From: Dyadobacter tibetensis Y620-1
GTDB lineage: Bacteria; Bacteroidota; Bacteroidia; Cytophagales; Spirosomataceae
Direction of reading: 5' to 3'
Assembly: GCF_000566685.1 (NCBI RefSeq)
Contig: NZ_AZQN01000001.1
Location: 496,001-560,000 of the forward strand
DNA: 64,000 bases
The notes under the pieces were generated by a model, which ran no database searches, was not told the origin of the DNA, and saw nothing but the letters and a program-made list of their open reading frames with translations. Of this stretch, positions 13,875 through 17,360 are shown piece after piece (within the stretch, counting starts at the first letter, position 1; every line of letters begins with the position of its first letter). The translations under genes were made by a program, and so were the position numbers.

Positions 13875-13994
13875 ATTATATATAAGAATAATACAAAAAA
13901 AATGGGGTAGGAGACCTCTTACTAAATCCTCCAAGAAACTAACGGATAAGTTTAACAAATCATTTAAGATATAATTGTACCAAAAACATTCAAT

Positions 13995-14864
13995 ATGAAC
14001 CGTCGAACGACATTAAAAAAAGTACTTGGAGGAGGCGCCGCATTGTCTCTTGCCGGATCAGTTCCTCTTTTCGCGGACTCAGATCGACTTAAACCATTAG
14101 CGCTAAAAGGAAATATTAACCATTCCGTATGTAAATGGTGCTATGGAAAAATTCCATTGGACACCTTTGCTCAGGACTGTGTCAAAATTGGAATTAAATC
14201 CATTGAGTTATTAGGCCCGGAAGATTGGCCAACTTTACAAAAATATGGATTAAAGTGTGCTTTACCCAGTGGTGCAGGTATGGGTATTGAGAAAGGCTTT
14301 AATGATCTAAAACTTCATGATGAACTCGTGGCCAGTTACGAAGCCTTGTTTCCAAAACTGAAAGCCGCCGGTCATACATCCGTAATTTGCTTTTCCGGAA
14401 ATCGTCGTGGAATGTCTGATCTGGACGGAATGCGTAACTGTGCGATTGGACTCAGAAGATTGATGCCCATGGCAGAGAAATATAATGTTACCATGATCAT
14501 GGAATTGCTAAATAGTAAAGTGAATCATAAGGATTATATGTGTGATCATACTGCCTGGGGAGCTGGACTTTGCGAAATGGTTGGATCTGAAAAATTCAAA
14601 CTACTATATGACATCTACCATATGCAAATTATGGAAGGCGACGTAATTGCTACCATTAAACAGTATCACCAGTATATCGGCCACTATCATACGGGTGGCG
14701 TTCCCGGTCGTAATGAAATCGACGATAGTCAGGAATTGTATTACCCGGCCATTATGAAAGCAATTATGGCCACAGGTTTTAAAGGTTACGTTGCTCAGGA
14801 GTTTATTCCCACAGCTGATCCAATTACTTCCTTACGCCAAGGAGTTCAGATCTGTGATATTTGA
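13995..14864 (+). CDS. Exported TIM-barrel isomerase, hydroxypyruvate isomerase-like
   Basis: This 289-residue protein has the start MNRRTTLKKVLGGGAALSLA, a Tat-like signal, which implies periplasmic export in folded form. The body is a xylose-isomerase-like TIM barrel. VCKWCYGKIPLDTFAQDCVK near the start, a metal-ligand Glu in MIMELLNSKVNHKDY, an Asp/His pair in KLLYDIYHMQIMEGD, and HYHTGGVPGRNEID resemble hydroxypyruvate isomerase. It likely isomerises a sugar or sugar acid released by the upstream oxidation genes. It lies 192 bases after the dehydrogenase gene, beyond that gene's terminator, so it probably has its own promoter. Confidence 0.85.
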   Translation: MNRRTTLKKVLGGGAALSLAGSVPLFADSDRLKPLALKGNINHSVCKWCYGKIPLDTFAQDCVKIGIKSIELLGPEDWPTLQKYGLKCALPSGAGMGIEKGFNDLKLHDELVASYEALFPKLKAAGHTSVICFSGNRRGMSDLDGMRNCAIGLRRLMPMAEKYNVTMIMELLNSKVNHKDYMCDHTAWGAGLCEMVGSEKFKLLYDIYHMQIMEGDVIATIKQYHQYIGHYHTGGVPGRNEIDDSQELYYPAIMKAIMATGFKGYVAQEFIPTADPITSLRQGVQICDI

Positions 14865-14901: not shown

Positions 14902-14936
14902 AAATGCGTGGCCATTATTTTTGGCCACGCATTTTT
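14902..14936 (+). terminator. Rho-independent terminator after the isomerase gene
   Basis: Arms AATGCGTGGCC and GGCCACGCATT are separated by ATTATTTTT and followed by TTTTT. This is a perfect 11-bp stem. Confidence 0.92.
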
Positions 14937-15834
14937 TCGCGATAGCTATTTGATTTTCTGTCAATTATGAACGCTAAAACGGAATATTCAAGCCTTGAGA
15001 TTTCGATATATGAATACATTCCGCATCACAGGCCATTCAACCAAATCTAATCAAACCTAATTCAAGCCAAAATATGGAATTTACAGACCATATAGCTCTA
15101 ACAACAGAGATATATTTGTTATATAATTTATATTATGTTAAATAGAATACCTCTTTTGCTTCAGTTTTTCCTTTTCCTAGAATTAATATACTTTATCCAA
15201 CTAAAGAATTGAGGGAATTCTTAGGGTCAATAAGTATTTGCTTCCATATCATCTGACAGGAGTTCTGAATCCCAAATTGAGTTTTCAGTAATCGCAACTG
15301 ATCGGCTGGTTCAGGAATTTGTAAGAATTTAAATCTACAACTATAATAACCCTAATAGACGTGGATCATTCGCCTGTCAGTCGATCTCAACTGATTCTTA
15401 AACCACCTATCACCTACCCGACCATAAACCTAACTAAGTTCTTAGTTTAATAATTGATTTCTTTGATATTCCAGTCGTATTTCCATTCTCGCCCAATTTT
15501 CCAGTGTCGACTCTTTAATTTATACCAGGAAGCAGTTCGTAAAGGGTCTCACCTACCCAATCCTAATTCCTGTTTAGAATAACTAAATAATTAGTTCTAC
15601 CCTACTATCTCTATTAAACAGCTCCCTATAACTAACTATTTAGTTGTTGCGAATATATTGATCTAATCCCTTCTTAAATCCGGTTACCATTCCGAATACC
15701 TTGGTGTAAATAATGGAAATCCAGTTTTAGTATCCTCCACTCAAGGCTGTGGCGATTTCTTATAATGATATAATTCCAGAAGTCAGTTCCGAATATGAAT
15801 GTTGGAACTCGCTTTAGGAAGAATTGCAGACACA
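14937..15834. other. Gene-free convergent gap with a palindrome array
   Basis: About 900 bases lie between two terminators at the 3' ends of two convergent genes, so neither neighbour needs a promoter here. No frame of useful length shows coding character. No tRNA or known structured RNA is recognised. The one notable content is three 16-bp palindromes and the associated CTACCC repeats at 15410-15645. Confidence 0.6.
15432..15645. repeat. Three 16-bp palindromes AACTAA-N4-TTAGTT
   Basis: Perfect copies lie at 15432-15447 (spacer GTTC), 15581-15596 (ATAA) and 15630-15645 (CTAT). All have exactly four spacer bases. Each is preceded within 30 bases by CTACCC; for the first two this is extended to TCACCTACCC (15410-15419, 15549-15558). 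I found no other full copy in the window. The form is typical of a dimeric regulator's operator. Confidence 0.7.
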
Positions 15835-15876
15835 CAAAAAAAATTGCCCGACAGAGCAAACTCTGCCGGGCAATCC
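15835..15876 (-). terminator. Rho-independent terminator of the TPR gene
   Basis: On the minus strand, ATTGCCCGGCAGAG and CTCTGTCGGGCAAT pair with one mismatch and are followed by eight T. Confidence 0.92.
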
Positions 15877-15902
15877 CTTTTCATTAATATACTGCTAACA
15901 AA

Positions 15903-17360
15903 TTACTCTTCTACACATGCAATTCCTTTACCTTCTAACTGAGCAATAATATTGGTCGCGTTTTCCAAAGCTTCTTTCGCTTCATCTTCATCTTTAACCT
16001 GTACTGCTTTTTCGAAATAAGGTTTTGCCTTCTTAAAGCGTCCACAAACTCTTGCTTCAATTTCTTTGCCACGCTTTTGGTAATCCGTCATATTCATATT
16101 ATCTACCTCACCTTTCAATTGAACGGCCTCATTGAAATAGAATGCCCCAAGGTTATACAAGGCATCATAATTATTTGGATCCAGAGCAAGCGCTTTTTTG
16201 TAGCTCGCAACCGCTTCGTTTACCGCTGATTTTTGCTTCGCTTTCAGTTCAGCCAATTCCTTTTCCAAGGCCGCTGTATCATTCCCTTTAGATGACTCCT
16301 TGGCATCAGCGATAGTTTTCTCAATTTTAGCTACTTCCTGAGTGGCTTCTTTCTGCTTCTCAGTAACGTCTGCCAACTGGCGTTTTAGATCTGCGCTTTT
16401 AGGTTGCTTTTTCAACAGACCGGTAATACGCTTTACCTCGCCATTATACACTTCGATCTTTCCTTTTTCTGTTTCAAGATCCTTATTTAGGTTATCTATT
16501 TTAGAAGTTCCTTCAGAAAGTTTCCCTTGAACCTCTCTAATCTTCTGATTCATTTTACTACTGGTGTTATCATATAGAATAGCCAGATTTAAAATATTTT
16601 GAAGATTTTCAGGATCCTTTTCTGTCAAGGCCTTCAATTCACTGATCGCCTGATCTTCCTTGCCTGAAGCAAGATAAATATTAACAATTTCAGCCTTCAA
16701 ATCTTTATTATCAGGAGAACGTTCCAATCCTTTATTAAGCGAGGCTAGAGCTTGATCAAATTTATCTTCGGCCCGATAGAGCTGACTAAGGCCATAGAAT
16801 ACACTTGGATCCTTACCACCATTTTCGGCATATTTCTCAAACTGAGTGATAGCCTCTGCTTTTTGGTCCAGAGACTGAGCAGCAATACCACCATAAAGAG
16901 ATGCCAATGTGTCCTTCTTATTAATCTCTTGAGCCATCTTAAACATTTCAAGAGCTCCTTGAAGGTTTTGGTTCTGATATTTCTCCGCACCCTGTTTAAC
17001 AAATGCATTGAATAGCTGAGTACCTTCTTCTCCAGCAAGAATGGATTCGGCCTCTTTAGAGGATTTGCCAGGTTGGCCTTTCTTATTAACATCCAGCTCT
17101 ATCACTTTTTTGTAAGCTTCATAGGCCGTTTTTGCTGCACTGGAGTCCAACTCGGAGGCCTGCATGGCGATGCTCTCATAAGTTTTTGCACGATCCATCC
17201 AGAAAGAAGCTTTAGCGCTCGCCTTCTCGTCCGTTATACTTTTATCGCTTTTCTCCTTTTCTTTCTGGTATTGCTCTACGATGAGCTTATTTGCCGCATC
17301 TTGACCAAAAGCCGTTGCGCTAAATAGTCCGAGTGCTGAAACAAAGAGTAATCTTTTCAT
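15903..17360 (-). CDS. Exported tetratricopeptide-repeat protein with coiled coil
   Basis: This 485-residue protein starts with a cleavable signal (MKRLLFVSALGLFSATAFGQ). TPR units cover about residues 35-260, for example KDPSVFYGLSQLYRAEDKFD and DQALASLNKGLERSPDNKDL. A charged coiled coil spans about 265-385 (EVQGKLSEGTSKIDNLNKDL), and further TPR-like helices run to the C-terminus (VASYKKALALDPNNYDALYN). It is probably a periplasmic scaffold or chaperone-like adaptor; no catalytic motif is visible. It lies 71 bases downstream of gyrA on the same strand, a common order in Cytophagales as far as I recall. A near-consensus TATATTTA lies in that gap, so it may have its own promoter. Confidence 0.85.
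   Translation of the reverse strand: MKRLLFVSALGLFSATAFGQDAANKLIVEQYQKEKEKSDKSITDEKASAKASFWMDRAKTYESIAMQASELDSSAAKTAYEAYKKVIELDVNKKGQPGKSSKEAESILAGEEGTQLFNAFVKQGAEKYQNQNLQGALEMFKMAQEINKKDTLASLYGGIAAQSLDQKAEAITQFEKYAENGGKDPSVFYGLSQLYRAEDKFDQALASLNKGLERSPDNKDLKAEIVNIYLASGKEDQAISELKALTEKDPENLQNILNLAILYDNTSSKMNQKIREVQGKLSEGTSKIDNLNKDLETEKGKIEVYNGEVKRITGLLKKQPKSADLKRQLADVTEKQKEATQEVAKIEKTIADAKESSKGNDTAALEKELAELKAKQKSAVNEAVASYKKALALDPNNYDALYNLGAFYFNEAVQLKGEVDNMNMTDYQKRGKEIEARVCGRFKKAKPYFEKAVQVKDEDEAKEALENATNIIAQLEGKGIACVEE

Follow-up and report, generated by a model that had tools for sequence, protein, structure and literature searches.

A gene-less array of predicted BlaI-type operators beside the dif site of Dyadobacter tibetensis Y620-1

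Why should three palindromes of identical form lie close together in a stretch of DNA that offers them no gene to regulate? This question is raised by the pattern AACTAA-N4-TTAGTT in Dyadobacter tibetensis Y620-1, which is found at positions 15432-15447, 15581-15596 and 15630-15645 of the window, i.e. the whole stretch of 64,000 nucleotides that was analysed. The three sites, to which no strand is assigned, are exact matches with the spacers GTTC, ATAA and CTAT, respectively, and all 36 of their 36 arm bases are intact. As had been described in the original prediction, they fall within 214 bases (with spacings of 149 and 49 bp between them), have spacers of four bases throughout and are joined by no fourth exact copy in the 64-kb window. 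Each is preceded by CTACCC (twice as TCACCTACCC), which stands 12, 22 and 27 bp ahead of palindromes 1, 2 and 3, and palindromes 2 and 3 together constitute a 22-bp inverted repeat of 86%.

The gap that harbors them separates convergent genes. To its left, on the plus strand, lies an ORF (13995-14864) in a flank conserved among relatives, which we take from its own sequence to be hydroxypyruvate-isomerase-like; to its right, on the minus strand, lies a gene (15903-17360) for a TPR-repeat protein recognized by Pfam TPR families. Both are followed by terminator-like hairpins: the inverted repeat 3' of the isomerase gene (14902-14934, plus strand) forms 13/13 pairs and is absent from the predicted terminator-like sites, and that 3' of the TPR gene (15836-15881, minus strand) is also among those predicted sites. 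The gap had been called gene-free, and among the listed ORFs the only one there to reach 50 aa has 61 aa and a TTG start (15674-15859). Outside the gap, a one-mismatch palindrome (AACTAACGGATAAGTT) is present at 13937-13952 of the window, with its first base 58 bp from the start of the isomerase gene; it could be due to chance.

The claim that the array exceeds chance was borne out. In 2000 dinucleotide shuffles of the 898-bp gap no 6-bp palindrome of whatever arm sequence occurred three times with its arms and spacer length kept, and even a single AACTAA-N4-TTAGTT was present in just one of the 2000. Across the surrounding 400 kb the array is the sole triple of any palindrome with 6-bp arms (spacers 0-10) within 300 bp. 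When up to two mismatches are allowed, the 64-kb window contains eight sites, an ordinary number (shuffle mean 5.6; 18 of 100 shuffles reach 8). The array is a genuine, non-random feature, built from a known type of element, in an unusual gene-less position.

The identity of the palindrome is suggested by its distribution. We scanned genome contigs for two copies of AACTAA-N4-TTAGTT 47-77 bp apart (31-61 bases between them), which yielded at least 119 loci; the same pair pattern had no match in viral contigs. Among the matches listed, 72 of the 80 titled pair loci are Bacteroidota by their titles, and the other eight come from four cyanobacteria, a Clostridium, Chlorobiota, Ignavibacteriae and a Pseudomonadales MAG. 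A BlaI homologue, as detected by phmmer with the C6 BlaI of D. tibetensis itself as the query, has its start no more than 200 bp from a palindrome in 99 of the 119 pair loci among the matches listed (66 of the 80 titled and 33 of the 39 remaining loci), and is found anywhere in the locus in 105 of these 119. In 20 of the 119 listed there is no BlaI homologue within 200 bp, and some of the non-Bacteroidota pair loci adjoin genes that by eye are TetR-like. Three sampled BlaI homologues of the pair loci belong to PF03965, and a long ORF follows the BlaI homologue on the same strand in 57 of the 66 titled loci among the matches listed, by eye mostly an M56-like membrane protein. In the pair loci the operators often come in threes, with 18+31 bp and similar spacings, and in 49 of 70 among the matches listed an operator is accompanied by TAnnTTTG, which we take to be the -7 box of Bacteroidota promoters. 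An arrangement that recurs often in Flavobacteriia is that of two operators 18 bp apart, the TAnnTTTG box, and a third operator 31 bp further.

The array sequence equals this palindrome found ahead of BlaI-type genes in the phylum; judged from sequence, AACTAA-N4-TTAGTT is the predicted operator of a Bacteroidota BlaI-type repressor. The array resembles the systems of the BlaI/MecI/CopY family (PF03965) in being a small cluster of inverted-repeat operators, in the exact form that precedes Bacteroidota blaI genes, but differs from them in having no adjoining repressor, M56 gene, other gene or promoter. The operators of the family in Firmicutes are of the form TACA-N2-TGTA, unlike AACTAA-N4-TTAGTT.

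The blaI genes of D. tibetensis and its genus point in the same direction. The genome contains two PF03965 genes, on contigs C6 and C5, neither of which is the contig of the array. Ahead of the one on C6, which encodes a BlaI of 124 aa, two operators with one mismatch each and a spacing of 20 bp stand immediately before TACATTTG (the sequence ahead of the gene being ATAACTAAAAAAATAGTTGTAGAACTAAAATAATAGTTATACATTTG); the gene is followed by a gene for an M56-TonB_C protein, the one partner ORF on which Pfam was run, which passes the M56 cut-off narrowly (31.9 vs 31 bits). The C5 gene is of another type and lacks such an operator. Taking the best match per genome in 30 fetched loci together with the two genes of D. 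tibetensis, 31 of 32 genus PF03965 loci have an operator at no more than one mismatch within the 265 bp that surround the start, as compared to 12 of 5000 random windows of the D. tibetensis genome. In 30 of these 31 the operator reads ATAGTT where the array has TTAGTT, the exact form occurring there in genome G005 alone; the exact TTAGTT form was also found in genome G064. The TTAGTT arm of the array is a minority form for the BlaI type of this genome. The spacing ahead of blaI in the genus is 20 bp, versus 149 and 49 bp in the array.

Further support comes from 20 additional PF03965 loci, picked from those listed. All seven BlaI paralogues of the 'AEAEIM...AYTTVAT' type (L320-L325 and L328), in six of which the AYTTVAT helix is visible, have TACTAA-N4-TTAGTA, and the 'AYNTVST' and 'AYNTIST' types have AACTA-N6-TAGTT operators; four of the 20 have no site at up to two mismatches. 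We take the 'AYTTVAT'-type segment to be the predicted recognition helix of the family, and the change of the operator arms with this helix is the strongest sequence indication that BlaI reads the operator. A Dyadobacter genome with three BlaI/MecI/CopY-family regulators has been reported (PMC12584681), with no operator named in the accessible part of that source.

Copies of the palindrome elsewhere in the genome and genus present a more varied picture. The pattern had been expected to be uncommon genome-wide, and it is rare, with six exact copies in 5.31 Mb versus two for the reversed control, but not confined to the array, three of the six lying outside it. At up to one mismatch the whole genome has 19 palindrome sites versus 51 for the reversed control, so that there is no genome-wide excess, and in the 48 genus genomes (D. 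tibetensis included) 114 exact sites versus 86 for the control amount to a small general excess only. On contig C1 the exact sites are the array and one other. An exact copy in the D. tibetensis genome (G000:C1:289763; L001 1501-1516) has a transposase-like gene on one side and a MazE-like remnant on the other, in a segment that resembles the palindrome-MazEF segment of L077 and L079 (named by eye). We examined 40 exact genus sites, picked from the listed part of the 114, and viewed thirteen further stretches, mostly on small contigs, separately. Four of the 40 precede blaI, 17 are of the outer-membrane-like/YfcE-like kind, eight precede FtsX-like permeases and 11 lie elsewhere (names by eye). 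As the 17 represent one conserved position, flanked by a YfcE-like phosphoesterase gene and a divergent outer-membrane-like gene (e.g. L290, L301 and L305), it is very probable that the palindrome serves as an operator in Dyadobacter, where another regulator, or a wider BlaI regulon, may make use of it.

On plasmid-like Dyadobacter contigs the palindrome was also observed in the vicinity of Rep3 replication genes, ParA-like genes or iterons, in three cases as pairs 74-76 bp apart (L071 6662/6738, L072 6402/6478 and L073 6017/6091). L071 and L072 share the arms and differ in the spacers. These neighbors prompted us to consider a mobile-element origin of the array; the gap shows no mobile gene, and the genome has just one dif. 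In L074, L075, L076, L081, L082 and L083 the palindrome lies with a changing N4 at the conserved end of a Tn3-like transposase gene (by eye), and these ends, which probably share it by common descent, were not counted as support.

The array is not the sole feature of its gap. At 15116-15143 on the plus strand lies dif, the 28-bp XerCD chromosome dimer resolution site (TTGTTATATAATTTATATTATGTTAAAT), recognizable by its position, uniqueness and conservation and absent from the original prediction. It is single in the genome at up to three mismatches, and GC skew switches sign at it, and within the 400 kb examined the cumulative maximum is 5.8 kb away. By BLAST, dif was detected in 36 of 36 other genomes of the genus and in 10 of 11 further ones (G061 was missed), i.e. 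46 of 47; the 22-bp core, changed at one position or none, occurs in the loci of all 47. Most of these loci were fetched for such a match, so that the BLAST counts are the fairer measure of conservation. Outside the genus, four loci chosen by match retain the core, two unchanged, one with one mismatch and one with three. The genome also encodes an FtsK gamma domain. A dif site had been predicted in 19 of 19 Bacteroidetes (PMC3025954; on dif see also PMC3091885). Second dif-like sites were seen away from the main dif in several relatives (G010:C17:39896, G013:C2:1768503, G027:C3:127873, G035:C2:41847 and G008:C1:48120), and possibly belong to plasmids or integrated elements using XerCD. The array, which sits 289-502 bp to the right of dif, is a neighbor of the dif/XerCD system in one gap and no part of it.

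The CTACCC repeats may be understood from this neighborhood. KOPS is the motif that orients FtsK, with the consensus GGGNAGGG. The first TCACCTACCC (15410-15419) reads GGGTAGGTGA on the minus strand, pointing at dif and near this consensus, and the second (15549-15558) and the CTACCC between palindromes 2 and 3 (15597-15602) have the same minus-strand polarity. The array's repeats resemble KOPS in reading GGGTAG towards dif in a genome with an FtsK gamma domain, but, being GGGTAGGT (twice) and GGGTAGAA, are at least one base off the consensus. Within 200 kb of dif on either side (400 kb of the D. tibetensis genome) the consensus itself occurs 34 times towards dif versus 8 away, and GGGTAGGG 15 times towards versus once away. 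GGGTAGG is found 45 times towards versus 16 away in the same 400 kb, and 45 versus 2 in the 589 kb that flank dif in 37 genus genomes, G-rich leading-strand words being biased generally. TCACCTACCC has nine copies in the genome, two of them in the gap. On these counts the repeats are best interpreted as ordinary KOPS-like words, polar and close to dif, and not as a part of the operator. Across the 37 genomes AGGGGAG near dif is directed 72 times towards it and never away.

What, then, are predicted BlaI operators doing here? No gene stands beside the array, and neither a blaI nor an M56 neighbor is present in the gap. TAnnTTTG is absent near the array, its nearest occurrences being at 15111 (plus strand) and at 15059 and 15049 (minus strand). 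The tandem phasing of 18-20 or 31-36 bp is not seen in the array, with its 149 and 49 bp; the 49 bp equal the 18+31 bp seen elsewhere, minus the middle site. A DNA search with 15150-15835 found no relative in 47 other genus genomes, plasmids or phages, and among relatives the gap is unconserved apart from about 40 bases near 15110-15150, which are dif. The original prediction had counted a gap unconserved even in sister strains against itself, and at the species level this is what the 47 other genus genomes (one per species) show. As far as one genome per species tells, the array appears restricted to its species.

The space that separates dif from the TPR gene, here called the slot, is itself variable. 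In 32 of 47 relatives the TPR gene ends within about 210 bp after dif, and in 15 of 47 other genes stand in between (both by eye); in D. tibetensis the slot measures 692 bp. G064, the closest relative by its flanks (80-84% identity), has a phosphotransferase-like and a ScyD-like gene there (named by eye) and no exact palindrome. In G064 (L235) a one-mismatch palindrome, AATTAACCTATTAGTT, lies 32 bp to the left of the dif core. The 692-bp slot is probably either the remainder after gene loss with the operators intact or a recent acquisition. A tblastn search of the gap with 3173 ORF queries brought up no recognizable gene remnant, whether of BlaI, M56, TonB or anything else. Four of the queries gave matches with E of 0.9-2.2e-4 per query, which is the chance level for so many queries and which we dismissed: three represent one related permease N-terminus (by eye) whose alignment crosses stops, and the fourth is on the other strand. 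A control with reversed sequences gave no matches.

Our preferred reading, to which we give roughly even credence, is that the array consists of BlaI/MecI-family operators, which would be all that survives of the control region of a unit, regulated by BlaI, that has been lost from the dif-TPR slot. In such a unit AACTA(A)-N4-(T)TAGTT would be occupied by a dimer of BlaI, which would cover the promoter and block it, and the partner M56 peptidase, BlaR1-like and here fused to TonB_C, would inactivate BlaI. Inactivation of the repressor by an M56 partner is known from the staphylococcal family. The unit would once have stood between dif and the TPR gene and then been lost, while its operators stayed. 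We infer both the binding of BlaI to the array and the loss of a gene. The original prediction had itself offered the control region of a lost gene as one of its readings; this is the one that fits best, given the variable slot and the genes in the G064 slot, although no remnant was recognized. Against a relic stands the perfect retention of 36 of 36 arm bases, which is odd for decaying DNA; against one of BlaI in particular stand the minority TTAGTT arm, a spacing unlike that of genus blaI genes, and the small share (4 of 40) of examined genus sites that precede blaI.

The perfectly kept arms would also accord with an operator still in use: a small RNA, the unseen RNA of the original prediction, or a short peptide may be encoded and transcribed inside the gap under repression by a BlaI-type protein. 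For 15520-15660, 197 of 200 shuffles fold less well than the minus strand (z -2.6), which owes this mostly to pairing of palindromes 2 and 3, but the plus strand is weaker (z -1.75) and 15400-15530 folds worse than shuffles on both strands. The want of a nearby TAnnTTTG, three sigma-70-like promoter matches versus a shuffle mean of 4.2, three Rfam matches (E 0.12-0.95) all far below the gathering score, and the absence of similar sequence from the 47 other genus genomes make such a gene rather unlikely. Alternatively, a second dimeric regulator that shares the half-site could bind the palindromes, for instance that of the outer-membrane/YfcE and FtsX-permease promoters, in keeping with the 36 of 40 examined exact genus sites that do not precede blaI and with the TetR-like genes (by eye) at some non-Bacteroidota pair loci. 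The outer-membrane/YfcE and FtsX genes could, however, also be regulated by BlaI, and the phylum-wide link to BlaI (99 of 119 among the matches listed) and the covariation of operator and helix speak for BlaI as the reader of the palindrome, so that we hold a different regulator to be unlikely. That the array is merely a chance cluster in AT-rich spacer DNA gains something from the incidental appearance of the three other exact sites of the genome, but is extremely unlikely in view of the shuffles and of its being the sole such triple in 400 kb.

Other readings assign the array a role at its present location. It might be a cluster of strong operators kept as a sink to titrate a BlaI-type repressor, as it has three perfect sites without a promoter and the genome's own blaI operators are imperfect; yet three sites are few for titrating a dimer, the array is species-restricted, and no comparable cluster was found near dif in the relatives examined, which renders a sink very improbable. 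We would say the same of the related idea that gene-less operators by dif hold a BlaI-type repressor at the terminus, be it as a sink or as a link of envelope-stress sensing (through M56-TonB) to the terminus or division. The original prediction had also entertained a protein-binding site that shapes the chromosome, of which the binding site stands, as a predicted BlaI-type operator, and the shaping has next to no support. An accessory dif/XerCD site, or an element of replication fork arrest or terminus folding, would accord with the location 289-502 bp right of dif, with the KOPS-like reading of the CTACCC repeats towards it, and with the one-mismatch palindrome near the dif core of G064. Nevertheless, the dif loci of other genomes, 47 of 47 in the genus and 4 of 4 outside it, lack the exact palindrome, and 40 of 40 loci show no palindrome recurring with the same arms near dif. 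At up to one mismatch, the 47 relatives have the G064 copy alone in the roughly 700 bp next to dif, where 0.4 are expected from their own density of such sites. Moreover, a symmetrical palindrome is not polar in the manner of a fork-arrest site, and the array has neither property of MatP/matS-type sites, which occur in many copies over the terminus and are conserved in relatives; its exact sites are not spread over the terminus. We consider a terminus element highly unlikely and have rejected it.

A relic of a BlaI-regulated unit, the reading that we favor, would make the array itself probably a minor, species-specific remnant; should it be bound and have a function, it would be an unusual case of operators clustered without a gene. 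A clean dif site for the genus Dyadobacter also comes from this gap. A thin literature search found no AACTAA-N4-TTAGTT operator in print. The palindrome provides a candidate sequence identity for the operator that marks BlaI-type operons across Bacteroidota, by which the regulon would become searchable by sequence.
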